From Buxus sempervirens (lineage: Eukaryota > Streptophyta > Magnoliopsida > Buxales > Buxaceae), in the NCBI GenBank assembly GCA_947561395.2, contig OX387193.1:28018276-28082275 (forward strand): a stretch of DNA of 64,000 bases, written 5' to 3'. Positions 5,525-60,400 of the stretch are shown in pieces; the stretch's first letter is position 1, and every line of letters starts with the position of its first letter. Under the pieces are notes generated by a model that saw only the letters and a list, made by a program, of their open reading frames with translations, ran no database searches and was not told the origin of the DNA. The position numbers were made by a program, and so were the translations under genes.

Positions 5525-5738
5525 ATAACTGAAATTAATTTTCGGTTATACACAAAATGTGTATAACCAAAATTTAATTTCGGTTCATAAAGTAAAACCC
5601 CAGATTTTTCTGACAAATTTCCCGACAATATCTCTGATTTTTCATGATTGCATGTTGGAAAACATGTTTATAGTATAACTGAAATTATATTTCAGTTATA
5701 CTATATTTTTAGCGTAACCGAAAATTAATTTTAGTTAC
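5525..5738. repeat. Palindrome array 1 of LTR B (TAACCG type)
   Basis: About 25-bp dyads with half-sites TAACTGAAAT / TTTCGGTTA start at 5525, 5563, 5675 and 5714. Pairwise pitch is 38 and 39 bp, with a gap of 112 bp between the two pairs. The last copy ends 11 bp before the TATA box at 5750. Confidence 0.8.
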
Positions 5739-5749
5739 TTTTTTTTGTC

Positions 5750-5757
5750 TATAAAAG
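5750..5757 (+). promoter_or_regulatory. TATA box of LTR B
   Basis: TATAAAAG directly downstream of palindrome array 1 and followed by pyrimidine-rich leader sequence. The position matches the TATA boxes of LTRs C, E, F and H. Confidence 0.7.
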
Positions 5758-6852
5758 GAGCTTAGCAGCTCATTTGAAAGAGGTTGGCCATTTTTGCTTT
5801 GCCCTCTCTCCTCCCTCTGTCTGAAACTTTCTTCTTCCCCTCCTTAATCCTTCTAAACTCCTCCATACCCCATCCAAGTGTACAAAACCCTTTCCTTCTT
5901 CTTCTCCTTCACTTAAAACCCAAAGGAAGCTTGAAGATCTTTCTTTTGTGCTTGGAGAGGAGGTGTCCTGGCTGTTGACAGTGCCTCCAAGGAACTCAAC
6001 ACACTCAAGCAACTCTCTAATCCCCTAGGTAAGCTCTTTGGTGAGTTTTATTGTACATATATGAATATGGTTGTGATTTGAGCATGTTTTAGCACTTGTC
6101 TTCTCTATGTACTATTTTCATTTAGCATTTGGTTTCTTTATTTTCCTTCTTCCCTTCGAATAATGGAGTTCTCATGACAAGGAGAAGGTATAGGCCTAAA
6201 AATGGGAGGTTGAGAGGTCGCACTAAAGTGGTTTAAGGTTTGCCTCTTAAGACATGTCCCTCCTCTCTTTGATGGTATTCTTTATTTTATTTTTTTATAA
6301 CCAAGGGGAGTACGTTCCCCTCTCCCATCTCAAAGTCTCATGTACCCCGATGAAATCCCCTTTTTCCCTTCTTTGTTTGTTTGCTAAAGTCTTTATGATC
6401 ATGCCGTTATGTGATGCCATGGTAGGGAATGGATGTAGGGACTTGCAGGTTTAGCCAGTAAGCACACACTTCCACATGATATGCTTGTAGTTTTGGTTTG
6501 TCTCTCCATACATGTTGTACACATAACATCACCCACATGCACATATGTATATAATAAGCATGCTAGGTTCTATTCTAATCTTGCAAATCAATCTGATCAT
6601 TTACACACATTCACATTTCAATTTAGCTTAGCATGTCTAGGATGTTCTCTTTGTGTATATAATTGAGTCATGCAGGTGTAGATAGAGGGTGTGGCCAAGC
6701 AAGGGCCATTTCTTCAAGTGTTGAACCATTGTGGGCCCACACAGCCTCCGAATGCCCCAAAGGACCCCGGGGATCAGTTCCCCTTTAACAAATTCAAAAC
6801 CTGTGTTTTCTGTGTTTGCTTGAAAACACAGGTCGGGCAAACCTGTCTGAAC

Positions 6853-6948
6853 ACTTAACCGATTTCAGTTAAGTGTATATTTAGCATGACCGCAATATTA
6901 TTGCGGTCATGCCATGTTTTGGTGTAACTGAAATTATACTTCGGTTAC
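6853..6948. repeat. Palindrome array 2 of LTR B
   Basis: Three dyads lie about 1.1 kb downstream of the TATA box: CTTAAC / GTTAAG centred near 6863, a 29-bp GCATGACCGCAATA-type palindrome centred at 6898, and a GTAACTGAAAT / TTCGGTTAC dyad at 6924-6948. Their sequences differ from one another although they sit in one array. Confidence 0.75.
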
Positions 6949-7999
6949 GCCCTATAAATATCAGAAAGTCAATTTTCAGCCCCCTTGTCCTTTTTGGATC
7001 TATTGTTCATAAAACCAATCAAGCCAAAAGGGTTTCTGGGTCAACCAGAAACCCAACATGGGCCTTGGACCCATCTAGTCCAATTTGATCAACCGTTGGC
7101 CTTCCAACGGGGCCCACTCAACCCGACCAACTCACTTTGTGCTAAAAGGATAAATAAGTTAAGTGAATGGGCCAACCCTCATGAGGCCCAACCAAAGCCC
7201 AATCTGAAACATGCTGGTTAGTTTAGGACTGGTTTGGCCGTGATTGCAGGCCTGGGCCTATCGAGCCCACTTAGCCCAATTGCCAATAAAGAAAGGGGTT
7301 CAAAACCCTGATCCACCAAGCCTTGGGTTTTTCAGCCCGAGCCTAGGATGCGGGCCCCAAGCCCATTCCTAGCCCATTGGAGAAGCTTAATTAAGATGAT
7401 TGAATCACAAGGCCACCACTGTGTGGCCCACCCAATGGGCCCACACATCATCTAGACACACCAAATAAAGTCTTAAGCTAATCCTTGGCTCAGATCAAAA
7501 TAAAATCAATCAAGCCAACTAAACCCTAACGGGCCTTTCAAGAATAGATCAAGGCCCTGAAAGGGACATGTAGGGTGGGCTCAGCCTACCAAAGAATCCG
7601 CAGGCCTTCCAATGAGGCCTGCCCAATCATACCCATATCACTTAAAATAAAGAAGATAAAACCAAATAAAAGGAAACCCACACCACTTTGGTGGTCCCCA
7701 CCAGACTAAAATAAACTGTGAATGTTTGGCCTAGGAAATAGGGTGAGATTAAGTTGACCTAACCAGGGAGACCCATGGGACCCGTCAACCAACGGGGTGG
7801 ACCATGGTGTCTACGGACTTCCTCGGACCGTAACTAAGACCCTACACAGAATCTCAAGCCGCAGACCAGCCTAATAGACAAACCTAGGCACCCAGGTGTC
7901 TGCTTGCACCCCATCAGGCAGTGGCCACTCCAAAACCCCGATTCTCCCAAAATGAGGCACGCACGTTCACATGCGCTTCGCCATGCAACCCTGTGCACA

Positions 8000-15922: not shown

Positions 15923-18050
15923 TGTGAGCGAGTCGGAAACGCCACAGGGGAAAATTCGGAGTCGCCACTGCCTGATGGGGTGCAGGCGGATACCTGGGTG
16001 CCTAATCTTGTTTATTGGTCTGGTCTGCGACTTGAGATTCTGAGAAAGGTCTCGGTTGTGGTCTGGGGAAGTCCGTAGACACCCCAGACCACCCCGTCGG
16101 ATGACGGGTTCCGTGGGTTCCCTAGTTTGAGTCGGCTTGCTTTGGTTTTCACCCGATTCCTAATCCGATATGCAAGTTGGTTAAGTCTGGCGGGACCACC
16201 TGAGTGGTGTAGGTCCCTTTAATTGATTTTATCTTGCTTAATTCAGTAATCTGAGTCTGATTGGGTGGGCCCCGTTGGAAGGCCCAAGTTTTCCTTGGTG
16301 GACTTAGGTAAGCCCACATATCCCCTGTGGGCCTCTGTCTAAGCCTAGGAGGCCCTTTAGGCGTAGGTTTAGTTAATTGATTTTATCTTGAGTTTTAATT
16401 TAAAGTCTTAAGTGGCCTTCATGAAAAAATTGGGTCGGCATGGGTTTGCGGGCCCCTGTGTGGGCCCCCAAGATTGTTGCCAAAGTATTTTAGATTTATC
16501 TTGTTATATTTTTCAAAATGAGTTTGGACATTGGGCTTGGGCCCGTAGTCCAAATTTGGGCTTGAAAGCCCGAGTTCCTTAAGGTTTAGGGTTTTCACTC
16601 TTCCTTAGTTTGGTTAATGGGCTTTGGCGGGCCCGATAGGCCCTAGCCCTGGGTCTCGGCCAGGCCATGCTATCTATCACACACTACATTCCACAAAACA
16701 AGGCTCGAGTGGGCCGCATTGGATTTGGCCCGTCTGATTCGATTAGTTAATTCCACTTAGCTTGCTTAGATTGCATGCTTAAATTCCTTTATGTTTGTCG
16801 GGCTTGGTGGGCCCCGTTGGAAGGCCACTAATTGTTTCAAATTGGACCGATGGTCCAGGTTCCGTGCTGGGTTTCCGGGTCACCCGGAAACCCTATCGGT
16901 CCATTTGGTTCGGTTTGAAAATATCATTCTAATGCATCAATATTCCAAGAGCATAAAAAGTAGCATTTCTTGAGGGCTTTGCTATGGAGGGTGTGCGCGC
17001 GTCGGAACGCCGCAAGGGAAAATTTGGAGTCGCAACCACCTGATGGGGTGCAGGCTAACACCTGGGTGCCTAATCTTGTCTATTGGGCTGGTCTGCGGCT
17101 TGAGATTCGGAGAAAGGTCTCGGTTGCGGTCTGGGGAAGTCCGTAGCCACCCCAGACCACCCTGTCGGATGACGGGTCCCGTGGGTTCCCTGGTTTGAGT
17201 CAACTCGCCTTGGTTTTTCACCCGATTCCTAATCCGATATTCAATTCGTTTAAGTCGGGTGGGACCACCTAAGTGGTGTGGGTCCCTTTAATTGCTTTTA
17301 CCTTGCTTAATTAGATGATCTGAGTTTGACTGGGTGGGCCCCGTTGGAAGGCCCACGGTGTCCTTGGTGGGCTTGGTTAAGCCCACATGCCTCTAGTGGG
17401 CCTCCGTCTAAGCCTGGGAGGCCCTTTGGGCTAAAGGTTTAGTGAATTAATTTTACCTTTAGGTTCAATTTGAAGTTTTAAGTGATTTCCACGCAAAAGG
17501 CAGGTCTGCATTGGTTTGTGGGCCCCTGGGTGGGCCCCCCATGATGGTTGCTAAAGTATTTTCAGATTATCTTGTTTAAATTTGCCAAGGTGAGTTGGAC
17601 ATTGGGCTTGGGGCCCGTAGTCCAAGTTTAGGCTTGAAAGCCCATGTTCTTGAAATTTATGGTTTTGGACCCTCACTTGGTTGGTTGGTGGGCTTTGGCG
17701 GGCCCGATAGGCCCTTGCCCTTGGTCTCGGCCAAACCATACAATTCAAACATCATTCCACAAAACAAGGTTCGGGTGGGCCGCATTGGGTTTGGCCCGCC
17801 TGGTTCGATCAATCGATTTTTTCTTATCTTGCTTATTTTGCATGCATTAGGGTTTATTAGGCTTGGTGGGCCCCGTTGGAAGGCCCACAAATGTTCCGAA
17901 TTGGACTGGTGATCCAGGTCCCATGTCGAGTTTCTAGATGACTCGGAAACCCTCTTGATTTATTTGGTTTCATTGTAACCATCACAAAAATTCCACAAAA
18001 CAAGAAAATATCAAAATTGGCATTTCTGCCAAGTAGCCGACCATTATGGT
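15923..18050 (-). repeat. 1.07-kb tandem duplication at the 3' end of LTR H
   Basis: Unit 1 (15923-16991) and unit 2 (16992 to about 18050) share the same order of landmarks: TCGGAA, GGAGTCGC, CCTGATGGGGTGCAGG (15971 and 17039), GGTGGGCCCCGTTGGAAGGC and a CCGGAAACCCT-type block. The offset is 1068 bp. The units are visibly diverged, so the duplication is old. A nested partial LTR is the alternative, but no second promoter half is present. Confidence 0.7.
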
Positions 18051-18135
18051 TGGCTAAGAACAAATTTTAATATAGCCGACCATAAAGGTCGGCTATAAAC
18101 AGGTTAAGGGTGATCCGACCTGAGTTGTCGGATCA
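18033..18135. repeat. Palindrome array 2 of LTR H
   Basis: Three dyads start at 18033 (TAGCCGAC / GTTGGCTA), 18072 (TAGCCGAC / GTCGGCTA) and 18111 (TGATCCGAC / GTCGGATCA). The pitch is exactly 39 bp twice. This is the promoter-distal array. Confidence 0.85.
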
Positions 18136-19924
18136 CCCTTAACTTGCCCTTTTTACGGGGTTTTGCCATTGGGATGCTTTTGTGGGTTTCCTAGGGGTCT
18201 TCTACAAGTCATGTGGGCCCTGGAGAGGCCCACATTGGTTCGGGCTTGGGAGGGCAACCCCTTGGGAGTTCTCTACAAAACAAGAAGGCATGGGCAAGGG
18301 GAGAGAGGGCTGCTGGCCCTTTCTCACTTCTTTTTGGTTATACAACAATGGCAAAAGGGGCACGGCTCCCCTAATTCATGGTTCCTTACCATTAATCCAT
18401 AAGCAATTAAAGATAAGTGATCATGCATATCAAGCGAAGCAAACAAATCACAAAACCTACATGTTGTAAGGCCTTGAACAGCACTTCACAAACAAGATTT
18501 AAATCTGGTTTTTTAGTGTACACACAAGGGTAAGCAATGCATGGGAGGAACAGCAGCTGCCATGGGGGTGGGGGAGCATGCTGGGGGTTGCAGCAAATTG
18601 TCTTGGGTCTATAGAACTGTTGGGACAGCAACAGTGAAGGGTTCATACATGCTTAAAGGATTGAAAATGGGGTGGGGCCAGGCACCTACATTTGTGGTGC
18701 TGGTGAGATGTCCTGGTGGTAGGGATACATGCATGGACTTGCTGGAACAGCAAGTTGAAAGGATACACAATCTTCACGATAATCCCGCAAGACAAGGTCA
18801 CATCATGCATACATCATCAAGGAAAAAAGAAACCTGTTGTAGGTAATAGCACAGCACCAAGTAAAGGATGGCTAAGCAAGTAAATAGGGGCAGGAAATTC
18901 ATGACAATTGGGGGAAGGGAAGCATGCATTAATATATGGACGATCAGCAAACCACAAAGGGGAAAGATCATGCATTCCTACCCTAAAACAGCAAGCCACA
19001 AGGGGGGGGGGGGGGGGGGGGGGGAAGGGAACATGCTTAACGCTTCGAACAACTAACAAGCGGGGAAGGAAAACACACCAAACACCCCCAGAAGCAGCAA
19101 GCAAACAATAAAAAGAAACGAACAGAAAAGAATAGTAGCTGGCATGCATGAGAAATTGATCAAGCATGTAAGAATAAATAAAGGAATGCTCATACGATCC
19201 TAGCATGCATGTCACTACACATGTAAAGACTAACAAAGAAAAACAGCAAAGGAACAATATCCAGCAAGATTTAGGCCTAGGCTTATTGCTCAACACAAAG
19301 CCTTTGGAGAAAGGAGAGAGAAGGGGGGGTTTATGGGGTACATTTGGACGAACTGGAAGAGGAACAGCCTCCTCTTAGAAATGCTTAAAAGAAGACCATC
19401 ACAGCAACTTGTGAGCCTTGGAAATGAGGTGGACTTCCTCCCACTCTCTCATAGAACAAGATGTGGGGGTCTCTCTTATCCTTAGAGACACCCACTTTAC
19501 CAAAAGAAGTAAGAAAAAGCATGTAAATGGGCATCAAAACCAGATTTCAGCTAGGGGAGAAGATGAACTCAAAAAATCAGTAGAATAATCTCATTTTAAA
19601 GTATGTACACTACAATACCAAGAGGAATCTTACCTGGTGGTTCTTCACTCTCTAGTGGAGGTGTGTGACCTCTTTGAGGCAAAACAACAGCTGGGAGTTC
19701 CACCTCTTGACAACAGCTGCAGTGGCTCCTTCTTATGCTGGGGTGCAAGTGAAGAGAAGGAAGGTGGGAGGAGGGTGAAGCAACTCAAGGATGGTGTGGG
19801 GGGTGGTGGAGGCAGGGAGGGTTGAGAAGAAGGTGGTTCAGATGAATAAGGGAGGGGGAAAAAGCTCCAAGGACAGCAACCCTCGGCCAGGGGGTTGCTG
19901 ACCCTTTCTATAGACTTTTTTAAT

Positions 19925-20170
19925 GTATCCGACCATATAGGTCGGATACACTACATCCTTAGTGTATCCGACCTATATGGTCGGATACACTAAGTTCTAT
20001 TTGTATCCGATATTAAATATCGGATACAAAACATAATTATTTGAAAATTTAATGCCACCGCGACTTTGTCCGAGAATCGGCGCGAATATCGCTGGTAGAT
20101 CTCTTTGTATCCGATGAATAGTATCGGATACATACAAAAGTATGTGTATCCGACATATTTGGTCGGATAC
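19925..20170. repeat. Palindrome array 1 of LTR H (GTATCCGA type)
   Basis: Near-perfect 25-bp palindromes of form GTATCCGA-N9-TCGGATAC start at 19925, 19964 and 20003, and again at 20107 and 20146. The pitch within each cluster is exactly 39 bp. The clusters are 104 bp apart. The array abuts the minus-strand TATA-like box near 19905. Confidence 0.9.
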
Positions 20171-20260
20171 AAATAAAAAAATTACAGATTTGCCCCTCAA
20201 CTTGACCAATTTGACCGATTCGACCGATTTGACACTTTTAGATATCTACAGATTGCCCCC

Positions 20261-24510: not shown

Positions 24511-25657
24511 ATGATCTTGCAAAGAGATACACACGGGTGTGATCGAAGCTCAAAGTCTCGGGTGTTCTTAGGTTTTGAACACTTACTGGGTTTTAGGATC
24601 TCAATGAAAGAGATGTGTGTGCACCCGTTTCCGAGTCGCACTGGGTAAAAATGGGAATTTGGAGTCGCCACCGCCTGATGGGGTGCAGGCGGACACTTGG
24701 GTGCCTAAATTAGTCTATTAAGGCTTGGTCTGCGGCTTGAGATTCTAAGTATGTTCTCGGTTGCAGTTTGGGGAAGTCCGTAGACACCCCAGTCCACCCC
24801 GTCAAGTGACGGGTCCCATAGGTTTCCCTGGTTTGAGTCAACTCTGGTCTCTCACTCACCCGATTCCTATTCCAGCATTCGATTTAGTTAAGTCTGGCGG
24901 GACCGCCAAAGCGGTGTGGGTCCCCTTACTTGATTTTATCTTCTTTAGCTTAAAATGAGATGAGTCTGCATTGGCGGGCCTCGTTGGAAGGCCCGCGGAT
25001 TCCTTGGTGGGCTCGGTTGAGCCCACGTGTCCCTTGGTGGGCCTCAGTCTAGCCTGAGAGGCCCTTTGGGCTTGGTTCAAATGTATTGATTTTACTTTAA
25101 AGTTTAAGTTGAATTTAAAGTGATTTTCATGCAAAGGTGGGCTGGGTTGGTTTGTGGCCCCTTGAGTGGGCCCCACTATTGGTTGCCGAGTGATTTTGAT
25201 TATCTTTCTTAATCTGTACCAAAATGGGCCAGGCCTTGGGCTTGGGGCCCTTTACCTGGGCTTAGGCTTGAAAGCCCAAGACTTCATGAGCTCGGGTTTG
25301 GAAGTCCCAAGTCGGTCTGGTTCGATGGGCTTTAGTGGGCCCGATCGGCCCTACCCACAGTCTCGGCCAAACCATGCATAAATCTAGGCATCATGCTTTC
25401 AAAATGGGCTTTGGTGGGCCTCAATGGGTTTGGCCCACTCAATCAATTTGATTATCTTTATTTAACAAAAGTAAACTTTATCGGGCTTGGTGGGCCCCGT
25501 CGGAAGGCCCATCGGAAATCAACTTGGACCGGGTCGGTCCATGGCCCATCTTGGGTTTCCGGGTGACCCGGAAACCCTACTGGTTCGCCCGGATCTATCA
25601 AACAAACCAAAGAAATCACACAAGATGAGCAAAATGACAAAAATGCGGTCTGGCAGT

Positions 25658-25760
25658 GTAGTCGGCCTAAGATGCCGGTTACACACAGGGCTCAGTGTAT
25701 CCGGCATCTGTGGCCGGCTACGAATGGGACTCTGTTGATCCGGCCTGAGTTGCCGGATCA
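25658..25760. repeat. Palindrome array 2 of LTR F
   Basis: Dyads start at 25658 (GTAGTCGGC / GCCGGTTAC), 25697 (GTATCCGGC / GCCGGCTAC) and 25736 (TGATCCGGC / GCCGGATCA). The pitch is exactly 39 bp twice, in the same relative place as 18033-18135 in LTR H. Confidence 0.88.
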
Positions 25761-26896
25761 ACACACAGAGGCTTGTTTTCGGATTTTTCAGAGGGGGTTG
25801 GGTTTCTGGGCTCCCTAAGGTGTTCCAAGGGTTGTGTGGGCTCCTGTGTGAGCCCACATTGGTACAGGGAGAGGGGGGGAATGTCCCAATTTTGCCTTCT
25901 TTTGGGACTTTGGTGGTTCAAGCAAAGGGGGAGGAGGCTTAAGGTGTTGCCTCCTCCCATTCTTGGGATACTTCGAGTAGATGAACAGGGACCTAGGTGT
26001 CCCTGTTTGGTTCTCCCCGGTCTGCGCAACAGCAAGCAAATAAAGTGGTGATAAAACAACAATCAAACCTATCCTACATGCTTTGACTATGGTGAACATG
26101 CTTTAACATCCTCATATTGTGTGCACGAAAAGTGGAGGGTGTGTGAGTGTACCTACAGCTTTGCAAATGGATACACATGCATGATCAAACTTGGGCAAGC
26201 ATGTCATACTACCGACTTTAAGCTTAAAAGAAACACAAGGTCACCAAGGCACAACTATTTTAGAGAAGGGAAAGAGAGGGAGATTAATAAGGGGTACAAT
26301 GGATGGATCATGCTAAGGGGAACATGCTCCCCATCACCAAAAAAATGGGCTCAAAACAATAGTTAAAATGACTAGAAGGAAATGTGGAGGGTCACCTCTC
26401 ATCCTCCCATGGAGCCAAACGTGATGCTCATCTTACCTAGGAGATCCTCATGTGGTGGCAATAAGAACATGATACATGCCATATATGCACTTGAACCGAC
26501 TTACAGCAAGGGAGAAAACCATGCTCATTAATATGCTTAGAAAACCACCATTTCTACATATACGTAAGGAAACTTAACAAGAAGCCATACCTTGGGGTTT
26601 CAAACCCTTCTTGTGGTGTGCTTGGACTCCCTTTGAAGCTCAACAGTGGCTGGAACCTCTCCTTGTGCCACCAAGAACAGCAAGTCCTCCTTTGGGTTTG
26701 AGTGGAAATGAAGAGGAAGAAGTGAGGAGAGAGTGGGAGAGTCTTACGGTTGTGTTTTGGGGGGTTATGGAGGCAAGGAAGGGCTTGGAGGAGGGATTTC
26801 GGAGCAAGGTTCGTGGGGGAGAAGAAGTGGAAAACAGCCAAAACCAAGCCAACCCCGGAAATGGGGCTGCTATTGCCTTTTTATAGAAAACTTAAT

Positions 26897-30387: not shown

Positions 30388-30477
30388 TGTAGACACCCCA
30401 AATTGCACAAACAATCATCAAAAATCATTATCTCCTGGAAAGCCAGCACAGAATTTGAAGAAAATAAATTTTTGCCA

Positions 30478-44647: not shown

Positions 44648-46329
44648 CTAATCTCCTAGCCGCTCCTCAAGCTCCCGAATCCGAGCTGCCTGAGCTGCAA
44701 TGACTCCTGAAGCCCCCTCTGCAGCGGGATCACTCAAGAAGGAAATGACCTCATCTGAAAGGGCCTGCTTGATCCACATACTCCTAAGGCTGGCCAAAGT
44801 ATCCTGGTACTTCTGCTCCTCCAGCTTTTCTTCCACAGCAATACGGCGTGAGATCTGCTCCTCAAGCTGCCTCTCCAGATAAGCGCCCTGTATCCTGAGC
44901 TCCTGGGCCTCCCGTACCCATATCTGCTGAAGCCGCTTATGAGAAGCCCGCTCAGACTCTAGAATGTCCTCATAAGTAGGAGCCAAGAATACAGGAGGAT
45001 CTTCGGGTACTGGGGCCTGAGTCTGTATCTGTTCCTTGATCCAGAAGAGATAATCCTTCACATGGGTTTCCGAGAAGACTGGGCCATGCATAAAGCGGAC
45101 ATAAGACCACTCCTTCATCAACCAAGCATTCAGCTTCATAGAAAGAGGCCCAAGACGATCCTCATATCCACATGGGATGATAATCCCCTGGGTCGCTCGG
45201 AACTGACGAAGGACCCGCAGAGGAAGATACAGCACTGCATGCTTTAGGCCCGCTAGGATCAAAAAGTTGCGGTCACGGAAGCTAATCACTGTCTCCGCAT
45301 TGGGCTGATAAGTGCCAGGCCATCTCACCTGGTCCTCTTGAAGTGAGCCCAAGAAAGTAAACCAGCCCTGTTTGCCCCCTGGAATATCGGGACACCCCCT
45401 GTTGCTCATCAACAAAGGAACTTTCAGACTCGGGAAGAAGTGTCGATTGATCTCTTCAATCTGGCTCAAATGATCAAGTAGCCAAAGCTGCAAGGGAAGA
45501 GAGAGGTGTCAGCACATTGTATATAAGAAAAAAAAGGGGCAAAAAGAAAGCCAAAAAGCAAAAAAAAAAAAAAAAAAGCAAAAAAGCAAAAAAAATAAAT
45601 AAATAAAGAAAAGCTTTTTACCTGCAGGATCTGGGCACATGCTAGGAAGCGTTTCGACTTCCTATTGTAGCAGTCAGTCAAGGCCTGATATATCCCAGCT
45701 AAAATCATAGGGGCCAACCTCTCCCGCTCCCTGACCTGGCATATCACAGAAATCAAGGCCAAGTCCACCTCGTCATCCTCCCGTGGGAAAAGCAACTGGT
45801 TGACCACTATCAGGGTCAACGCGTTGAATCGGGCCTCCTTATCTTCTCCCCTCAAAAGCTTCTCAGTCAAAAAAGCCTTAGATAGGGTCAAAAGGGTGTC
45901 AGAATCCCCCAAGTCCTTCTTCCCTATGCCCAAAAAAGTAGAAGCTTCCTTCTTATAACTGGGCCTAAGAGGTGGATTCACCACCTTCTCATCAAACCTC
46001 AGGCCCAGGATGGTTTCCACCTCTTCAATGGTTGGGGTCATCTCATGGGTCCCAAAACGGAACAAGTTGAGATCAGGAACCCAATGACCAATCATGGCCT
46101 CTATAATCTCCCACTTGAAGGGAACCTTGGGAATGAGCAGGGTATGGCCTAGGTTAGTAGTACCCCATCTCCTCTCCTCATCTAGGGTCATAGAGTTAAC
46201 CCACCTGGTGTAAAAGGAATCCACAGGGTTGTACCTAGTGAGATTTGGGGGTTTTGATCTAAAAGGCTGTTTTGCAGGGGAGGCAATGTGGACAGACAAT
46301 AATGGGGCAGAAGATGATCCGGATTCCAT
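44648..46329 (-). CDS. Antisense gene 1 of element Y: PMD plus coiled-coil protein
   Basis: Two exons on the strand opposite gag-pol: 46329-45622 and 45487-44648, joined across a 134-bp GT-AG intron (CAG|GTAAAA ... TTGCAG|CTT), phase 0, giving 515 aa. The N-terminal half (about 40-235) is a plant mobile domain: VPFKWEIIEAMIGHW, DLNLFRFGTHEMTPTIEEVETILGLRF, YNRKSKRFLACAQILQ. Residues about 390-515 form a coiled coil (ERASHKRLQQIW, LERQLEEQI, RIRELEERLGD end). The MESGSS start (46329) is chosen because the upstream ATG at 46422 lies too close to the TATA box at 46441-46446. PMD proteins such as MAIN and MAIL1 act in gene silencing and genome stability; the role in this element is unknown. Confidence 0.85.
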
Positions 46330-46440: not shown

Positions 46441-46446
46441 TTTATA
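46441..46446 (-). promoter_or_regulatory. TATA box of antisense gene 1
   Basis: On the minus strand it reads CTATAAATGC. It lies about 112 bp before the MESGSS ATG and about 12 bp from the palindrome array, the same arrangement as in LTRs B, C, E, F and H. Confidence 0.75.
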
Positions 46447-46458
46447 GCATCTTTTAAC

Positions 46459-46599
46459 ATATCCGGTAACTCAGACCGGATACAAAGGCTTTGGTAATAT
46501 CCGGATAAGTATACCGGATACAACGGATCCCATGAATATCCGGTATAACATACCGGATACAAAGACCAATCCATGTATCCGGTATGTCAGACCGGATAC
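46459..46599. repeat. Palindrome array upstream of antisense gene 1
   Basis: Four dyads with TATCCGG / CCGGATA half-sites start at 46459, 46497, 46536 and 46575 (pitch 38, 39, 39), the same order of spacings as in the Y LTR. Confidence 0.9.
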
Positions 46600-46805
46600 C
46601 GAGAAAAAATGCAAAAAAAGAGCTAAGGATGAAAAAATCTGAATTTTTTACCTGTTTTACCTGCTTACAAGTCATAATTGCATAGAATGGAGAGCAAAAG
46701 ATGTGCAAGACATGATAGAATGAATAAAAAGTTTTTTCATATATATCTGAAAGTTTTTGTACAGGGATGATAAAAATACATGAAAATGAAAAATATAATC
46801 CTAAT

Positions 46806-49481
46806 CTACTCCTGTGCAGGATCATCCCCGCGTCCTCGGCCGCGTCCACCTCTACGGCGTCTCCCCCAAAGGGCTCGGCCTCTAGAGTATGCAAGAATCC
46901 GCTCGGCCGCATGGCGAGGATGCCGACCTACCACCTGCTGAAGATGATACTCCAAGCAATAATCCTCGAGATCTGGGGGAGGAGCAGGAGTAGAATCTGG
47001 AGAAGAAGCCTCGGGCTCAGCAGCAACCGGCCCAACTGGGCCCTCATCCAAAGCATCCTCTGCTCCCGCAGCTCCAGAAGGCCCAGCATCAGCAGCAGAG
47101 GGGCCAGGATCAGAAGTAGCTGAGTCCACAGAAAAGAGGAAATCAGAAGATTCAGATATAAGGAAGAATAAAAGAAGAGAATAAAAAGAAGATCATACCA
47201 GGAAGATCTGCAGAAGGAGCAGGAGGATCCGGCACACCAGGATCAGCAGCTGGGACATCCACAGGATCAGAGGCCCGAGCAGGAGATGGGTCAGGAATCA
47301 GGAAATCATGCTCAAAGAAGGCATCCTGATCATGGGCCGGGCCCTACACAAGTCAAACAAGCATATTAGAATATCAGAAACAGGAAAATTAAAAAAAATA
47401 TAAGAAGGCCAGATACCTGTCTAGACTGGAGCTCAGCAACTAAGGCCTCCAGCTCCCTGATCCGGGCATCCCGCTGGGCCACGACCGCATCGTGCTCCGC
47501 GATCATATCATCAATCGCAGCCCGCTGGCTCTCGAACCGGTCCCGAATGGAGTTCAGCTCGTGTACCTGCCAGCAAGAACGGAAGCATGGTCAGAAAGGC
47601 ATAAGGAAGGAAAAGAGGATAAAAATGGGAAGAGTACAAGGCTTACCGTGTCCTCATGGATCCGGATACGGATCCCGCCAATCTCAGTCACCCCAGCACG
47701 AGTGGGTCGATCCATCAAGCATCCAATAGACACCCGCTGGAACCACTCGTCATAATCTCCAGCTACTGTAAGCCCCTCCGCATCCAAGAAGTGATCGAAC
47801 TGATCAACATCAAAGCCCGGGAGGAGTGTGTCAGGACCCACAGCAGGAGGAGGGACGGGGATGCGAAGTGCGCCAGTGTGCTGGTAGTACAGGCGCTCTC
47901 CCAAGTACATCACCCTACCAAGCCTCCCAAGGAAGCACTGGTAAGACTGACGTCGGAGATCTCGCTCAAAAGCATCCTGTACTGCCATCTCACGGGCGAC
48001 TCCGACATCCACGTCATCTGGACGGGATAGAATAAGCTGCAAAGAAGCAAAGTGGTCAGATACAGTCAAGGTACAGGAAAGGAAATAAAAGAAAAAAAAA
48101 TAGAGGACTTACATCAGATCGGCGGGCACGGTCTAAGTGCGCCCGAGCAGTGCGAGGCTGGCTCCTATCGGCATCTCGAACCTGGGCCGACCATCGCAGG
48201 GCCACAGGGAAATCCGCAACCTCAGGAACCGGGGAGGGGCGGAAGGTCATATAGGTGTACATGAACACCTGGCAAAAGAAAAATCAGTCAATAAAAGATA
48301 AAGCCTAAGGAATTAAGCCAGACAGATGAATGCAATACCTGTAGAATCTGCCAGAAGAACCGGCTGCTAACTCCATCACCTCTCGGAGATGCTAAGCCTC
48401 GAACCGCTCGGCACAGCCCGGCCAAGATGGTCCCATAGATCAGCCGACCCCATGCTAGCTGGCGGGTCTGATGGAAATCTCTCAAGGCGTCCAAAAAGAG
48501 CGGACTGACACCAGTCGTATCCTCCGGGAAGAAGCAGCTCCCCAACATCAGCAGGAATACATGTCGGAAGATCGGCGCAAAGGCTGCATCCTCCACAGAA
48601 ACGGTCTCGTGCCTCCTCTCAAAATGGCGAGCCAGACTCTCCCGCAGCCAGCTAATGGAGAGCCGGCCACTCCTCCCATCCCAGGCAGTAGGTGGAAGGG
48701 CCTGATACCCCAGAAGGAGGCCCATATCCTCCGCAGAAGGCAGCTCTAGGACGATGGTCCGTCCCGTCAGAGGAATGCCAGTAATCATCACAAAATCGGA
48801 GGGGCGGATCCCCAGCTCCACGTCCGGCAGGTGGAACGACTGTGTCTCTGGGAAGTATCTCTCCATCATGGCAAAAATGAGTGGACGGTCGGCTCTGAAT
48901 GATGGAATACTGAGGAAGTGATCCAGATGGCACCTCCCAAACTCCCGCCTGAGTGCCGGAGAAAGTGACCGTGCCAACTCGCTGAATCTCCCCCAGCTGC
49001 CGCGCAAGTGGGAAGAATAGTAGGGAAGCGGCACATCGGCCCTGATGCACATGGAGGGGTGGCTATCCAAGCCATGGAGGAGCTCTGTATCATGCACAGA
49101 AGCCCTCAACTCCTCAGAGACCCCTGCCAAAGCTACAGCAACCCCCTCCGGAGCCATATCTCTGGCTCTGCCTCGGCCTCTACCACGGCCTCTCTCGCCC
49201 TCAGGGGCCTGATCCTGAACCCGGCCTCTGCCTCGGCCTCGACCACGAGCGGGTACAACCACGGGCTGAATTGCAAAGGAACAGCGTGAATATTTGTGTA
49301 CAAGGGAGAATGAAGAGAGAAAGAAAATTTTTTGAAAACCTACCTCGGCAGAACTCTCTCTGGAGTCACCTAACGGCTCAGACAAAGTGGCGCTGGAGCT
49401 CGCCTCTGTCCGAGCCCGCGAACTGGAGGGCTGATCAGCTGGGTCAACATCCTCTCTAACCCGAGAACGACTCCTAGCCAT
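46806..49481 (-). CDS. Antisense gene 2 of element Y: seven-exon PMD protein
   Basis: Coding exons on the minus strand: 49481-49344, 49265-48339, 48268-48113, 48036-47647, 47566-47417, 47343-47199, 47119-46806. All six introns are GT-AG and 70-80 bp. The sum is 2220 nt, 739 aa, with no stop in frame. Order: S/R-rich N-terminus (1-46), RGRGRG repeats (about 50-85), plant mobile domain (about 110-420; FPETQSFHLP near 182, then SDFVMITGIPLTGR), a second folded part (420-530), coiled coil in exon 5 (about 536-585, ending RIRELEALVAELQSRQ), a P/A/D-rich tail, and a basic RRRRGGRGRGRG end. RG tracts suggest nucleic-acid binding (inference). It lies upstream of gene 1 on the same strand and has its own palindrome array. 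Confidence 0.85.
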
Positions 49482-50690
49482 CTACAACAGGGAAGTATCC
49501 TGTGAATTTCAGTTCAAATTTATGTGGAACCCTACTTTGCTTAGTTCAAATTGATCAAAAATTTCACTTTGATTTTATAAGTTCTAACTCTGGTTCATCA
49601 GGAATCTCATATGATTTTTCAGGGATTGGGGTTCGGTTCAAAGTCTTTTAGAAAATATTACTCTAAAAAATTTGTTTACAAGACCTAATATCTGATAATT
49701 TTCTGCAGGATTGCTACCTGGGTGCAAAAGCAAAGGGTCTGAGCTAAATGAAGGATCGGAATAACGGTGGAGACCAACCACAGAATGGTCCTGGCAGTTG
49801 GAGCACAACATTAACACCGGGCGGATTGAGAATCCCAGCATATCAAGAAGTAGCAGCAAGGCAGTCCTAAGTTTTGGACACTATCAAGTCAAGGATTGCA
49901 CAAGCAACAGTCACATGGGCAGCTCCAAAAAGTGGTAATTGAAAGGCAAGAATCACATATCATGAAGTCTGAAAATTCTATCAATAAGCTATATGGGAAA
50001 TGCCCAATCATGTCATTCAGTGGGAAAGGCAATCCCAATCAGTGCAAATAAAAGTCATGGCGTCACAAAAAATTTTTGAAGCATTGTAATCCAGCATGGT
50101 TTGTCCAAAACAACCAAGGCAATGACAGGATTGGATTCATTAAAGCATCAATTCAGAAATTCAAGCTCAAACTTGGCAGAAATTCAGAAATTCAGGCAAT
50201 TGGCAGCAATTCAGAATTGGCAGAAATTCAAGCAATTGGGAATTTACCACAATCAAAAGAAATCCAAGGCATAGCTATTCAGAATCAAGGCTTGACAGCC
50301 AAGGCAATAACACAGCAAGCATTCGGTTTCTAAAGGAATCAATACAAAAAGAATACATGCTCGTCCAATGTTTGAAACAGCAAATTAAAATGAGAAGAAT
50401 GCATGCTAAGATGCTCACTGACCTGGTCGGATTGAGTCGAGTTGGAGAAGAACAGGAAATCCAAAAGAAAATCGAGCTAGGGCTCGACTGCTGCTTTGAA
50501 TGATCGAACAAGGGAGGTCGCCGGAGTTGCAGACTCTCGCCGGCAGCAACAGGAGCCACCGGAGCTCAGGGAATCGCCGGAGAAGAAGGGAGCAACCGTC
50601 GGGTGAAGAAGAAGAGGAGGATAGCCGGTCTGAGTTATCGGAGAAAGAAGAGAAGAAATGAAAAGTCGCGGTCGCGCGCGACTTAAGTAA
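49482..50690 (-). promoter_or_regulatory. 5' untranslated exon and intron of antisense gene 2 (predicted)
   Basis: On the minus strand the stretch from about 50690 to 50422 has no ATG and ends CCGACCAG|GTCAGTGAG (donor at 50421). An acceptor TTGTAG sits directly before the ATG of gene 2 (49482/49481). A 940-bp leader intron would make that ATG the first in the mRNA. No clear TATA box is present; TTTACTTAA (50683-50691) is a weak candidate. Otherwise I see no gene in this 1.2 kb. Confidence 0.55.
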
Positions 50691-50697
50691 ACCTGCG

Positions 50698-50761
50698 GGA
50701 TCCGGATACTCAGGCCGGATACCCGCAGGCCCTTTATTATCCGGATACATTTACCGGATAC
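50698..50761. repeat. Palindrome pair upstream of antisense gene 2
   Basis: Two dyads start at 50698 and 50737 (GATCCGG / CCGGATAC; TATCCGG / CCGGATAC), pitch 39 bp. They are the same type as at gene 1 and in the Y LTR. Confidence 0.85.
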
Positions 50762-50762
50762 C

Positions 50763-53593: not shown

Positions 53594-54821
53594 CTGTGTT
53601 TGCCCGAGGACTCAAGTCGAGCAAACATCATTTTATACATAACCGAAATTGTATTTCAGTTATGTATAAAATATAACATGACTGAAATTTAATTTCGCTC
53701 ATGTTATATTGAGGTGTAACCGAAATTTAATTTCGGTTACACCCTGTAAACCTTAAGAATCAGCTTTTTCTCATCCCTTGTCATTTTTAGCTTGTTTGCA
53801 TCTAAACCAGATTACCCAGCAGGGTTTCCGGGACAACAGGAAAGCCAATGTGGGCCTTGTAGTCCAATGGGCCCAGCTTGATTACCTGTGGGCCTTCCAA
53901 CAGGGCCCACTTAGCCCAATAAACATGCTTTAGTCCGAATCAAGCAAGATAATCTAAGTAATCAAGCCATACCGTTTGAGGCCCAACCAAAGCCCAATCA
54001 ACTACCTACTGAATAGACTAGGGTTTGGTTTGGCTATGACCACGGGCTTGGGCCGATCGGGCCCTGCTCCCCCCAAGGGAAGCCAACTTAGCCAGGAGGG
54101 AAGGGTATCCAGAACCCTGACCCATGAAGCCTTGGGCTTTGAAACCCAAGCCTAGGGTATGGGCCCCAAGCCCATTCCTAGCCCACTTGGAAGAACTTAA
54201 CAAAGATAATAAAAGTATCAGGGCAACCCTTGTGAGGCCCACCCAATGGGCCCACAAACCATCCAGGCCCACTAGAATAAACCTTAACTTAAACCTTCAT
54301 CTAAACCCTAAATAAAAAAAGCAAAATTAGCCAAAACCCAAAGGGCTTTTTAGGGTTAGAGAGGAGCCCAACAAGGGGGAATGTGGGCCCTGTTCGACCC
54401 ACCAAGGGATCCATGGGCCTTCCAAAGGGGCCCACCCCCGACCAACATCACTTCAACTAATCAAATAAAAGAAAGGGGACCTACACCTTTCAACTGGCCC
54501 CACCAGACTTAAATAAGGTGTTTGCATACCTGAGTAGGAAAATTGGGTGAGATAGACCAAGGTAAAATTGACTCAAACCAGGGAGACCCAAGGGACCTGT
54601 CAACCGACGGGGCGGACAGGGGTGTTTTCAGACTTCCTCGAACCGTAACTGAGACCTTACACAAAATCTCAAGCCACAGACCAGCCTAATAGACAGACCT
54701 AGGCACCCAGGTGTCTGTCTGTACCCCATCAGGTAGTGACAACTCCAAAACCTTGATTTTTCCCGAATGGAAGCACGCATTCCCGTGTGCCCCATGGTGC
54801 GACATTCCCGACGCGTGCACA
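53594..54821 (+). mobile_element. Solo LTR C, right part
   Basis: It continues LTR C after element Y, beginning with the right TSD CTGTG (53594-53598) and ending GTGCACA at 54821, followed by TSD CCATC (54822-54826). It has GGCCCAC-rich blocks and the landmark ACCCCATCAGG near 54723. No gene. Confidence 0.88.
53639..53740. repeat. Palindrome array 2 of LTR C (TAACCG type)
   Basis: Dyads start at 53639 (ATAACCGAAAT / ATTTCAGTTAT), 53678 (ATGACTGAAAT / ATTTCGCTCAT) and 53716 (GTAACCGAAAT / ATTTCGGTTAC). The pitch is 39 and 38 bp, although the sequence is unrelated to the TATCCGG type. Confidence 0.88.
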
Positions 54822-55960: not shown

Positions 55961-57472
55961 CCAACCGGAATTCCAAGTCAATTTAGGGTTCCACAACATA
56001 GCTCTTAATCAGTCTAAAGCATGCATAAGGAGATGCAGAAATTAAGTGAAAGGGATGGACATCACCATTTTTCACAGTTTTCCCCAGAATTCAGCAAAGT
56101 AGTAAATAAATTAAAAGACAATGCGAAATTTCAATCCAAGCACACAAGGTGTGTGGTCCTAGAGGTTAGCGCCAATTGAGGCGCGACTCCTAGACATACT
56201 TGTGTAGGGAAGCACGTCCAAGTGCTGATCAGTCTTTTGTCTTTCATCTGTTCTTTCATCTGCTTTACGTGTCGGACCGCCGCAAAACTTACAACTTGCC
56301 ATCAAGGGCAAAATTTACATGATATTTACAAAATCTATGAAGAATTCATCTCTAGGGCTGTTGGGAGCCCCAAAGAAGGGTACAATTTGCTTTAAAGGCA
56401 GGTGAGCTAAATTCCTAGATCTAGGGTTTCATGCCCTTGTTCTGATTTGACCTGCTTTCATCTGATTATGTGATCTGACCGACTTTCACTTGCTCAAAAA
56501 GGCCGATCTGGACTTAAAGTGCTTTCAGCGGACTCAATGGGTCAGGGCCCAAGGCTCACAGGACTCAATTCATGGATCTGGGGTGGTTCCCCTAATCAAA
56601 GTTAGGCCAGCTTCCTAAATTAAGGCTAGGGCAACCCTTGATCTAGGGTTTACTCAATTTGATGCAAAAGGCGGGGGTTGCTGCCCCTGATGGACTATTG
56701 GGTTTTAAGTTGATTTTACTCCTCTTGTATTCACCATTCAAGCACATTCAAAGAACCACGGGGTATTCAGACGTAATAAGTAGGAAAGGATACCCAGCAC
56801 GAGACATACGCCTATAAGGGTCTGGACCAAGTACTAGACCCTCACGTACTACGGCAAGAAACCAGTGACGCTATAGGAATCCAGAAACGTGGGGAGATGG
56901 GTTAACCTTGCTTTCCCCAGAAAACCACGGGAGCGTAAGGCTAATACCATCCCAAAATGTTGTTCATAGGAATCAAAAAGGTGGCTGCTAGAGAGATCTA
57001 GGTTTTGGTAGAGAAGATGCAATATTCGTTGATTTATTTACACAAGATCGGATCATTCACGCAGTCTCCCTCGTGCATGTCACCCCACGCAGTTTTTATT
57101 AAAGCAGTAGAACCATCCACGGTGTAGTAGGTGCCCGTGTGTGTAGTTGGGCCGAGTGCTATGTCTAATTGGGTGAGTTTGATTTGGATATTGACTGATG
57201 AAAGAGTTTCTTATTGCCCCATATAGTAAAGTGAAGCATTGGCACGCAAAACAATGTTCTGGGAGAATTCCCAGGTAATTTGAGGGGTCACGGTGGTCCC
57301 ACTTAAAATCCAATTTCCTTAGGCAATTATCTCGTCCTTCATGACAAAATTCCCAAACATACGTATTCCTGTGTATGCTGTATTTAACTAAGATAAGGAA
57401 AAAAGAACCATAAACACCAACCATATCCCCCTTAGGTTGACTCTTTCAAACTAGGGTCCGGCTGGGCTGAAA
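55961..57472 (-). other. Element M region between PBS and PMD pseudogene
   Basis: 1.5 kb with no recognisable gene. Open frames on either strand are short and match nothing I know. It may contain the decayed promoter and 5' part of the PMD gene. Confidence 0.4.
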
Positions 57473-57491
57473 GGTCCCAGCGGAGTCGCCA
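57473..57491 (-). other. Primer binding site of element M
   Basis: On the minus strand it reads TGGCGACTCCGCTGGGACC, three bases from the LTR end at 57495. It is the same class as the element Y PBS and fixes LTR E as a 5' LTR. Confidence 0.85.
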
Positions 57492-57494
57492 GGC

Positions 57495-60400
57495 TGTGCG
57501 CACGTGGGTCGCACTACGAGGCACACGGGAGTGCGTTCCTGATGGGGTGCAGACAGACACCTGGGTGCCTAGGTTTTTCTATTTAGGCGGTCTGCGGCTT
57601 GAGATTCTATGTAAAGTCTCAGTTACGGTCCAGGAAAGTCCTAAGACACCCCGGTCCGCCCCATCGGGTGACGGGTCCCACAGGTCTCCCTGGTTCGTGT
57701 CAACTTCTATTTTTGATCTCACTCAATTCCTACTCAGATATGCAACCACTTCTTTAAGTCTAGTGGGGACCACTTGAGAGGCATGGGTCCCCTTTCTTTT
57801 ATTTGATTTTATCTTGATTCGTTGAAGTGAGGTTGGTCTGAGGTGGGCCCCTTTGGAAGGCTCACGGCATGCCAAGTTGGGCTTAAGTCAAGCCCAAGTC
57901 CTATTTGGGTTACATTAGATAACCCACTTTTTGGAGGTTAATTAATTTGGTTTGGAGGTTATTTAATCATGCAAGAGATTTAGTGAGTTTGAGGCTTTTA
58001 AGATGGGCCCATTGTGCTTGTACGGAGGCCCAAAGGCTTATTCAAATCGCCCTTGAAGCCCATCTTTGGAATGGGCCGGGGTTAGGGCTAGTCAGGTATG
58101 GGCCCCGTTGGAAAGCCCACAAAGAAGTCTTATTGGGCCCAGGAGGGCCCAAGTCTCAAAAGAAGGCCTAGAATTGCCCAGAGGCCGAGAGGGATCAAAG
58201 CTGATTGATTGAGTTGGATTAAATGGGCCTAAGCCCAAAGATACATGCTTTGGAAGCTTACTGGGTGCTGCCCGCAGACCCTGTGCAGGCAGGCCCTGAG
58301 TTTACGAGCATGACCCGAAACCTAAAAAAAAAACAATTTCTGGGAGGGGGACAAGGGCTCCTCCTCCCCAAGGCCTTGCACACACCTATGGGTCACAAAG
58401 CTGACCCACAGTGGCTTCAAACTTCCACTTTTTGGCTAAAACCAACACCTTTCAAGGTTATCCCAAGGGGGAAGAAGGGAGAAAGCTTGGGGCTTTCTCC
58501 CTAACTTAGAACAATTGCTTGAAACCATAGAACATGGACCCTAGAAGTCCCTGTATGGTATTGAAGGTGATCTTGCCCCCCCCCCCCCCCCCATGAGAAG
58601 AGGAGAAAGAAAGGCCAAGAGGCCTAGATAATGTCTCATTCGTCCATCCATCCGTGCACACATCCCAACCATGCAATATACACACTTAAGGCATATAAGA
58701 ATGGCACGAAAATAGCAAGGGAAACATGTAACCTCAAGAATGCACAAGTGGTAATAAGAGGAAAAGGGATTCATGAAGAGACCTAGCCTGATTCCTAAGG
58801 CATCATGGACGTACGTGTGTGCTTGGGGGCTGCTGACCAAGTGTTCACAAACACAAGTCACAACAGAGGGTAGGACATAAAAAGAACATTCTTACATGAC
58901 CCTCATGCACACAAACTTAAGCTCATGCTCCCTAAATGGTGTAGCATACATAGAAAGAATAAAGTGAGGGAAGAAGGGGGTTAGGCTCATTCATACTTCT
59001 GATAACTGCCGTGAACGTATGTGAGCATGATAGGTGCATGAAGATTGGGTGGAAAATCATGCTACATGGCACAAGACAGTAACAAACCATATAGGGCAGC
59101 AACCATGGGATGGGGAGCATGCAAAATACATGCTCACAACTTTAAATCCATGCATGCAAGCATATTTAATAAGTAAAACAGCACACACCAGCATGTCTGA
59201 AGCCTAAAAGGGCTTAAAAAGAAGTGACTTAGCGGGGATTAGGGCTACAATGGAGGTATAAGAAGAGGAGAACATGCTCCCCTAGAATAAATGCACAGTA
59301 GCCTCATTAACATAACCTTTTGACCATCAACATGGTGCTTCCCTCCTCCCATACGAAATGTTGACCTCCCCTTACCATGGAGGACTCAATGGCACGAAAA
59401 GTGAAGAAAAGGAAGAAGGGAGAATAGTAAAAAAGGACTCGAGATGGCCAAGAATGTAGACATACTCACAATACACTCATTTTGATATATGTGAAACAAA
59501 ATACCAAGGAAACACTTACCTTGGGGTTGTTTTTCTCATTGGAGATGAGGTGGTACCTTAGTGGACATGAACAGCAACCCAAAAGCTCCTCTTGGCTCCA
59601 CCAAATGTCCACTTCTTGTCTTCTTGTTGGTAGGAAAGGGAGAGAAGGTGAAAGGAGAGGCTTGGAGGGTATAATGGGAATTTAGGAGGGCTTGGATGAG
59701 GGGGAGGAGGTTCAGAGGGCTTACTGGTCTCAGAAGGGGTGTTGGGGACGAAAGGGGAGCAGCCAACCTTGAACCAAGGGGCTTTGGGCCCCTATTTATA
59801 GAAAAGAGCTTTGTCCGCACATAGTGTGCGGCGAGGCTTGCCCACACACTATGTGCAGACGAGCTGTCCTTGCGCGCAATGAGTGTGAATCTGCCACGTG
59901 GTGATTCGCGCAGAAGATAAGATTCTCGGAAATCTTTTTCGCCCGCACATGAAGTGCGGACAGGACATTTTCAGTTCATTTTCGCTCCGTCGACACACTC
60001 ACTGCGGATTTTGAGGTTTCCCCAGATTTCCGAGATTCTGGATAAGATTTTGCCCGCATATCATGTCGGGCAATGCACATCCGCACCACATGTGCGGACG
60101 CCCACTTTCTCTCTCTTGTTTTGACTGATTGAAGTGATGGATTTGATTGATGTGACGGATTTCTCTCTCCTGACGAGAGAATCCGATTTTTCATTTATTT
60201 TAAACAAGAAAAATGAGATATTTTGTGAAAACTCATTATTTTAGTCAAGATATTTTCTTTCTCTTTGTCCTTTCGTCGTTTTACTGCATTTTTGCCACGT
60301 GAGCAGTTTTCTACATTTCCGTCTCAGGGTTTGACTTGATCATAACTGCCCGATCCAGACACCAATTCTGGCAAACTCAGTAGCGTCAGAACCGTGTCAA

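Follow-up and report, generated by a model that had tools for sequence, protein, structure and literature searches.

The nearest precedent for the palindrome arrays described here is the set of repeated motifs (RM) in the long terminal repeats (LTRs) of Sirevirus retrotransposons, and the nearest mechanism is that of VANC proteins and the motif arrays of VANDAL elements, which are DNA transposons. In the available sections of Bousios et al. (2010), the Sirevirus (Ty1/copia) RM are numerous short palindromes, almost all built on a CGG-CCG core, that lie before the TATA box in the LTR with extra copies before an additional ENV-like gene, the rest of the motif varying by element (PMC2829016). Hosaka et al. 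(2017), in the sections available, describe VANC anti-silencing proteins of VANDAL elements, with motif arrays in non-coding parts and with motif and protein changing together (PMC5735166). Retand, a Tat-clade retrotransposon, carries antisense genes between pol and the 3' LTR, with TRP28, and these were suggested to be DNA-binding regulators (PMC11963269, available portion). Here we analyse a 64,000-nucleotide stretch of the Buxus sempervirens genome (C19:28018276-28082275, the window) whose relevant content is nested Tat-type Ty3/gypsy retrotransposon sequence, including an element termed Y, together with genome-wide counts made on the 676.5-Mb genome of the same assembly. In the available portion of PMC11963269 the string "palindrom" is confined to the title of one cited paper, and it is absent from the main text of PMC6317226, which treats Ogre elements with extra PMD open reading frames (ORFs). 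The literature searched, from which subscription papers were largely out of reach, holds no description of such arrays for Tat/Ogre elements in the portions seen, and this is not proof of absence.

An earlier note on this DNA had reported short dyads at a fixed pitch of 39 base pairs (bp) across unrelated LTR sequences. The dyads are present, within a base or two of where they had been placed, and far exceed chance. A motif-free dyad scan of the window returned 55 dyads as compared to 6, 5 and 3 in three dinucleotide shuffles, and a scan for CCG-N11-CGG with paired arms returned 50, while 20 shuffles averaged 2.25 and never exceeded 5. All 26 neighbour gaps shorter than 77 bp in the latter scan, the second copy of the Y LTR included, are 38 or 39 bp. 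Admitting fainter dyads and excluding the Y 3' LTR copy gives 32 in-array gaps, 28 of which measure 38-39 bp; the remainder are two of 27-27.5 bp in LTR K and two of 34.5-35.5 bp in array 2 of LTR B. The fixed 39-bp pitch therefore fails for K, for B array 2 and for whole half-site classes at 28 bp. Nor are the LTRs unrelated, as self-comparison of the window shows B, C, H, F and K to be copies of one backbone of ~3 kb, and Y and S to be copies of another. The observation is thus confirmed in part: the arrays are real, broader and more structured than reported, and 39 bp is one of two pitches. Beyond it we found an array in the leader of Y, arrays ahead of both of its antisense PMD genes (PMD1 and PMD2), a preferred TATA-box spacing, and dyads marked by a central hexamer, ACTCAG or a near form. 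The arrays of the window are as follows.

30477..30619, plus strand: array in the LTR of Y, four dyads, centres 30490, 30528, 30567 and 30606, half-site TATCCGG (second copy, in the 3' LTR, at 51409-51551)
34042..34185, plus strand: array in the leader of Y, centres 34055 (faint, marked ACTCAG), 34094, 34133 and 34172, pitch 39 bp
46458..46600, minus strand: array ahead of antisense PMD gene 1, centres 46471 (marked), 46509, 46548 and 46587, pitch 38-39 bp
46441..46447, minus strand: TATA box (CTATAAA) before PMD gene 1, 24 bp past the last dyad centre
50619..50762, minus strand: array ahead of PMD gene 2, centres 50632 (faint, marked), 50710 (marked) and 50749
5524..5739, plus strand: LTR B array 1, centres 5537 and 5575, then a 112-bp gap, 5687 and 5726, half-site TAACCGA
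6814..6949, plus strand: LTR B array 2, centres 6828 (degenerate marked dyad), 6863.5, 6898 and 6936, gaps 35.5, 34.5 and 38 bp
29168..29194, plus strand: last dyad of LTR C array 1, centre 29181
53599..53741, plus strand: LTR C array 2, centres 53612 (marked, ACTCAA), 53651, 53690 and 53728
19924..20171, minus strand: LTR H array 1, centres 19937, 19976 and 20015, then a 104-bp gap, 20119 and 20158, half-site TATCCGA
18032..18136, minus strand: LTR H array 2, centres 18045, 18084 and 18123 (marked)
26896..27142, minus strand: LTR F array 1, centres 26909, 26948 and 26986 (1-bp deletion), then a 104-bp gap, 27090 and 27129, half-site TATCCGG
25657..25761, minus strand: LTR F array 2, centres 25670, 25709 and 25748 (marked)
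22481..22585, minus strand: LTR S array, centres 22494 (marked), 22533 and 22572, half-site TATCCGA
59810..60102, minus strand: LTR K array, centres 59823, 59850, 59951, 60061.5 (core spacing N10) and 60089, half-site TCCGCAC

All classes share the geometry CCG-N11-CGG about a central base, from which single dyads deviate (K 60061.5, with N10, for example), while outer and inner bases vary: TATCCGG in F and Y, TATCCGA in H and S, TAACCGA in B and C, and TCCGCAC in K, where the pitch is 27 and 27.5 bp and not 39 bp. LTRs B, C, H and F have two arrays each, array 1 directly ahead of the TATA box and array 2 ~1.1-1.8 kb beyond it, with Y intervening in C; Y itself has four, in the LTR, in the leader, before PMD1 and before PMD2. 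In B, H, F and the further loci L017-L019 and L022, and thus in both pitch classes, array 1 has a shared layout, a doublet separated by a gap of 103-112 bp from the two to four dyads that follow; these gaps between sub-arrays have no common helical phase. The CCG of the half-site is intact in 26/26 half-sites of Y, 15/16 of H and 13/14 of F, and in 6/12 of B, 4/8 of C and 3/6 of S, with changes mostly to CTG or CCA; this loss in B, C and S is perhaps an age marker, through decay of methylated CpG.

Genome-wide, TATCCGG-N9-CCGGATA occurs 28,399 times as compared to 5 for the reversed control. Such a dyad followed by TATCCGG at a pitch of 38-39 bp was found at 15,271+15,107 = 30,378 places on the two strands (control, 0), as compared to 26+23 = 49 places at 23-37 bp, none of them at 28 bp. 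A further 1,910+1,740 matches fall at 40-70 bp, and those listed are mostly the pattern matching again within the next in-register dyad. The pitch of this class is therefore enriched at 38-39 bp rather than broadly spread, and that part of the earlier proposal stands. TAACCGA, searched with an open spacing of 25-55 bp, gave 444+454 = 898 places; among the 100 matches listed, 94 are at 38-39 bp, and the other six are at 40 bp (four), 37 bp and 28 bp (a single match each). The TATCCGA class was seen within the window only. Many genome copies share descent, so all genome-wide counts measure abundance and not independent events.

A second pitch was exposed by 12 arbitrary 10-kb stretches (120 kb of an intended 200 kb and 20 stretches, eight contigs being too short), which held 10 dyads in four stretches, with five neighbour gaps below 200 bp of 28, 28, 28, 56 and 71 bp. 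CCCGTA-N7-TACGGG is followed by CCCGTA at 27-28 bp at 4,727+4,682 places, and at 29-59 bp at 2,162+2,123 = 4,285 places; among the 100 of the latter that were listed, 93 are at 56 bp, seven at 55 bp and none at 39 bp, and spacings of 55-56 bp are two steps of about 28. TCCGCAC gave 42 places, with a spacing of 28 bp in 35 of them, 47-48 bp in five, 27 and 29 bp once each, and 38-39 bp in none. Two further features of contig C1 came out of these searches. Eight listed TATCCGG matches in C1:8464545-8571857 share one orientation and a constant step of ~15.32 kb, and one element unit is probably repeated there in tandem, head to tail; matches at ~61.03-kb steps (8895665/8956692/9017743 for CCCGTA and 8865070/8926097/8987124 for the ACTCAG-marked pattern) probably reflect a large tandem segmental duplication.

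Pitch tracks half-site class and not LTR backbone. CCCGTA arrays at 28 bp sit on Y/S-type LTRs at loci L010 and L012, and TCCGCAC arrays at 27-28 bp sit on B/F-type LTRs at L011 and K, so both backbones carry both pitches. A further comparison is that of Y with L012, a Y-like element on C11, whose LTR and leader arrays are both of the CCCGTA type at ~28 bp, as compared to TATCCGG at 39 bp in Y. Together these two arrays hold eight dyads, some of which are faint, with 4-6 of 9 pairs. In Y and L012 alike the distance from the LTR start to the LTR array is 100-115 bp; the leader arrays correspond only roughly. We predicted, before its sequence was read, that the PMD1 promoter array of C11 would be of the CCCGTA type at a pitch of 28 bp, and an array of that type at a pitch of 27-28 bp was found (L025): it lies directly upstream of PMD1 exon 1 with centres at 883, 911, 938, 966 and 994 and a TATA box at 851, its outermost two dyads being faint (5 and 4 of 9 pairs). 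The C11 element thus has the other class in all three arrays examined, which supports the earlier suggestion that a protein sets the pitch. The companion claim, that spacing is kept while sequence changes, holds within TATCCGG, TATCCGA and TAACCGA (38-39 bp) and fails across all classes, so that the interpretation offered with it is supported in part. The two pitches differ by 11 bp, or about one helical turn, with rotational offsets of 240 and 257 degrees for 28 and 39 bp at 10.5 bp per turn.

Concerted change of the half-site is also seen between LTRs of one backbone. The homologous LTRs H and F differ at offset 5 of the half-site, where H has A in 16/16 half-sites and F has G in 14/14. Over seven dyad pairs from both arrays, offset 5 differs in 14/14 comparisons and offsets 6-11 in 4/84 (Fisher test, 9e-14, with half-sites treated as independent). 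Within array 1, offsets 6-11 differ in 0/48, while outside the dyads 138/175 positions are identical (37/175 differ), with the spacers identical at 54/83 (29/83 differ) and the central loops at 18/45. In Y, G stands at offset 5 in 24/26 half-sites across the LTR, leader, PMD1 and PMD2 arrays. Judged from the sequences, this pattern is what one trans-acting specificity per element would predict. A deamination origin of the A/G difference was set aside, the neighbouring CCG being intact in 15/16 H half-sites. The offset-5, core-pairing and arm-symmetry counts use 41 dyads, a set that leaves out the Y 3' LTR copy, K, 6863.5 of B array 2, F 26986 with its 1-bp deletion, 6828, 34055, 50632 and 53612; the paired comparison uses seven H/F and three B/C dyads, H 20015 being unpaired owing to the deletion in F.

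Placement relative to TATA boxes and the marked dyads add to this picture. A TATA box starts 22-24 bp past the last dyad centre in 6 of 14 window arrays, at a chance of 0.0005 per array: array 1 of B (5749, 23 bp), of C (24 bp), of H (19913, 24 bp) and of F (26886, 23 bp), the K array (59801), and the PMD1 array. Five of the six belong to homologous LTRs and the PMD1 array is separate. Among nine further loci, picked from pattern matches and not at random, four (L017, L018, L019 and L022) have the TATA box at 23-25 bp. For the PMD2 array, no CTATA[AGT]A was found within 400 bp downstream of 50710.

ACTCAG stands exactly at the centre of 5/46 window dyads (expected, 0.026), and of 7/46 with at most one mismatch (expected, 0.38); further copies stand in two fainter in-register dyads (34055 and 50632) and a degenerate one in B array 2. 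Genome-wide, TATCCGGNNACTCAGNCCGGATA occurs 2,131+2,174 times as compared to ~14 expected from the 28,399 dyads (an estimate, 2/4096). The marked dyads are mostly at array ends, 50710 not being terminal if the faint 50632 belongs to the same PMD2 array, and by eye ACTCAG points inward in 8/9, with 50632 as the exception. Also by eye, L001, array 2 of L022 and L023 have ACTCAG or a near form pointing inward at both ends; L022 further has an outward-pointing copy at 362 and near forms inside array 2. ACTCAG in this register is missing from the arrays next to the TATA box in LTRs B, C, H, F and K; the corresponding array of L022 has one at 440. The marked end is upstream in the Y LTR, the leader and array 2 of C, H and F, and at the TATA side in S and PMD1; the polarity of an array therefore does not depend on which way its promoter points.

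The reading that we favour, and judge probable on sequence grounds, is that the arrays are multi-dimer promoter sites of an element-specific, probably element-encoded DNA-binding protein, with the class setting both half-site and pitch. Each array would act in cis as a regulatory platform on which several dimers of a sequence-specific protein bind, one dimer per dyad (CCG-N11-CGG with family-specific outer bases), and neighbouring dimers would touch or pack at the class-specific distance of 38-39 or ~28 bp. Pitches differing by roughly one helical turn would give a similar rotational offset between dimers, which may reflect dimer-dimer contact. The same type of array precedes the LTR promoter and the antisense PMD genes and is also present in the leader, so that one factor would control both genomic RNA and accessory genes, a putative autoregulation. 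Protein binding itself is likely, as judged from the sequences. The factor would be element-specific, and most likely element-encoded, because arrays of one element largely share half-site and pitch while those of related elements differ; that the element encodes it is a reasonably good bet. That the factor is one of the PMD proteins is possible, and we hold it somewhat short of even. Between Y and C11, identity is 52% over 265 residues for PMD2 and 63% over 599 for the first 600 residues of gag; PMD2 is the most diverged of PMD1, PMD2 and gag, a weak argument for its being the likelier specificity factor. More tentative still, and doubtful as a whole, is a private, re-codable operator system in plant Tat/Ogre elements, in which a PMD protein would load polar arrays from the marked end dyads, the two structural classes would lie one helical turn apart, and elements of the same backbone would have escaped mutual control by switching half-site and pitch together in LTR, leader and regulator promoter. 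If true, the PMD domain gains a molecular function.

Several observations weigh against multi-dimer sites for an element's own regulator. PMD1 exon 1 is 80% identical between Y and C11 over 237 residues, high for a switched specificity. Over offsets 4-11, H array 1 scores 6.45 of 8 against F array 1 and 6.43 against H array 2, being equally like both, so that offset 5 carries the H/F signal; at this offset B array 2 is out of line with its class in 2/4 half-sites. The TATA box lies at 168 bp in Y (30774), 180 in S and 16 in B array 2, five window arrays lack one within 400 bp, and in the further loci it lies at 60 bp in L020, 168 in L001 and 32 in L025, with none in L021, L023 and L024. PMD2 found no relative among 8,000 scored candidates of a protein collection, and PMD1 no match among solved structures. 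Additionally, the arms pair beyond the half-site, at offsets 13-18, in 117/246 cases as compared to a mean of 94.4 when arms are swapped among dyads of the same element (a value reached in 11 of 10,000 permutations), and a pure dimer site would have no need of such pairing. The symmetry claim excludes offsets 9-12, since the dyads had been selected on them.

Arm pairing of this kind bears on the idea that the palindromes act as hairpins in RNA or single-stranded DNA (as genomic RNA structure or small-RNA templates) and not as duplex protein sites. Six arrays folded as RNA far better than 200 shuffles each (z of -8.3 to -15.6), and small RNAs are in excess on clustered palindromes of maize Sirevirus LTRs (Bousios 2016, as related in the available part of PMC10760457). 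We nonetheless consider hairpins improbable: the core offsets 6-8 have no dyad-specific pairing beyond consensus (109/123 as compared to a permutation mean of 109.7), so the specific sequence is conserved and not pairing alone, and constant pitch and TATA spacing are unexpected from separate hairpins. Compensatory evolution of the outer arms was found weak, with 6 changes as compared to 2.9 in the control, and only the symmetry excess stands. Long arm symmetry, including private extensions in single dyads such as H 18123 and C 53651, could have been made by template switching at quasi-palindromes, the alternative being hairpin selection; template switching can both create and mend hairpins (PMC8794818, available portion). 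The same process enters the view that a 39-bp or 28-bp unit was duplicated in tandem and had its arms re-symmetrised, the pitch persisting by descent and without function, for which one may cite the outer-arm symmetry excess and the several 39-bp arrays reported by Tandem Repeats Finder. This we regard as very improbable, since drift would hardly give 14/14 differences at one offset, or leave the H and F half-sites of array 1 unchanged at offsets 6-11 while their surroundings diverged.

Host transcription factors, with families using different factors or having captured different host promoters, would explain why arrays adjoin TATA boxes. The half-sites of H and S contain CCGAC, the core of the host dehydration-responsive element/C-repeat (DRE/CRT), which counts in favour of this view. 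Sirevirus repeated motifs, moreover, mainly matched stress-factor sites in PLACE (PMC2829016, available sections). Host control is nevertheless unlikely in our estimation: five half-site classes share the CCG-N11-CGG geometry, and the arrays of the examined elements, the PMD array included, differ together with no obvious host reason. Regular spacing as such could also reflect a nucleosome-scale or other chromatin structure, which the earlier note had allowed as setting the pitch; one pitch would then be expected whatever the half-site, and because two discrete pitches (~28 and 38-39 bp) are found, each tied to half-site class, we give this next to no credence. Nor is either value, 28 or 39 bp, known as a nucleosome repeat length.

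The element that carries four of the arrays is well defined, and the features of Y and of two LTRs in the window are these.

30388-53593, plus strand: element Y, Tat/Ogre-type with open gag and pol ORFs, with LTRs, target-site duplication (TSD) and primer-binding site (PBS)
30388..32661, plus strand: 5' LTR of Y (3' LTR at 51320-53593)
36413-40117, plus strand: gag ORF of Y, with G-patch
40117-43704, plus strand: pol ORF of Y, with reverse transcriptase (RT), RNase H, additional RNase H and integrase
44648..46329, minus strand: PMD gene 1 (PMD/DUF7745), likely ATG at 46329
48288..49481, minus strand: first exon of PMD gene 2
4781..7963 (ends approximate), plus strand: LTR B
20261-23167, minus strand: solo LTR S, with GGGGG flanks on both sides

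The two LTRs of Y are 99.96% identical in the self-comparison, the 5-bp TSD CTGTG flanks it on both sides, and the PBS is at 32664. Pfam places RT_RNaseH at residues 465-569 of pol, RVT_3 at 624-742 and rve at 909-1006, so that an additional RNase H lies between RNase H and integrase, as in the Tat clade (Ogre/Retand). PMD occurs in two antisense ORFs, an Ogre-type feature, and TRP28 is absent among the 16 ORFs given to Pfam. The available sections of PMC6317226 report PMD in 57% of Ogre elements and an additional RNase H between RNase H and integrase, and Y fits Ogre because its domain order and PMD match this description; a PMD extra ORF is a frequent and not an obligatory Ogre feature, and the placement rests on domains and not on a tree. 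The pol of Y had no match among viral contigs. PMD gene 1 has, by eye, a GT-AG intron (45621-45488) and a coiled-coil-like C-terminus, and later exons of PMD gene 2 probably continue down to about 46800 (by eye). A GT-AG intron follows the same ...QILQ residues in both genes, again by eye (45488-45621, and just below ~48340). The PMD genes are antisense, and their introns would therefore survive retrotransposition.

Other features of the window concern its nesting and repeats. The insertion point of Y (30383-30388 / 53593-53612) directly adjoins a marked dyad of LTR C, and solo LTR S (20261) lies ~90 bp from array 1 of LTR H; these are the only two nested-insertion cases beside arrays. Directly ahead of gag, the Y leader holds a long tandem repeat (34483-36158, units around 44, 76 and 118 bp). 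The 3' part of an H-type LTR is duplicated in tandem (15923-16910 and 16992-17969, 82% identical).

No function has been established for the additional antisense genes that Tat retrotransposons carry, and a cis code, which here foretold the array ahead of a PMD gene still unread, makes that function testable and suggests which elements share a regulator. The differences described here, one base at all compared half-sites in one case and half-site plus pitch in the other, offer a natural series of specificity switches for following the co-change of regulator and site. Half-site and pitch can also serve as a simple sequence label with which to sort a plant genome's many large retrotransposons.

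As compared to the described systems, Y resembles Retand, in the portion of that account available, as a Tat-clade element with antisense genes between pol and the 3' LTR, and differs in carrying PMD where Retand has TRP28. Like the Sirevirus RM, the arrays consist of multi-copy palindromes built on a CGG/CCG core. They precede the TATA box of the LTR, as array 1 does in B, C, H, F and K and, at a greater distance, as the arrays of Y and S do, and extra arrays stand before an accessory gene (PMD1 in two elements, PMD2 in Y). Unlike there, the accessory gene is an antisense PMD gene and not ENV-like, and the host element is not Ty1/copia: its integrase follows RNase H and an additional RNase H, which is the Ty3-type order together with the feature that marks Tat. 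The available sections of PMC2829016 give RM consensus sites of 10-20 bp, unlike the arrays here, and do not mention a fixed pitch, half-site and pitch classes, or marked end dyads. The VANC motif, as given in the available sections of PMC5735166, is non-palindromic and arrayed in one orientation, unlike the dyads here. VANC is an element-encoded anti-silencing protein, and such a system is characterised by binding of that protein to the motif and removal of methylation in trans. Like the VANDAL arrays, those described here are made of a short motif in non-coding parts of the element and differ in concert between related elements, in the two comparisons made: the H and F LTRs, and Y and its C11 relative.

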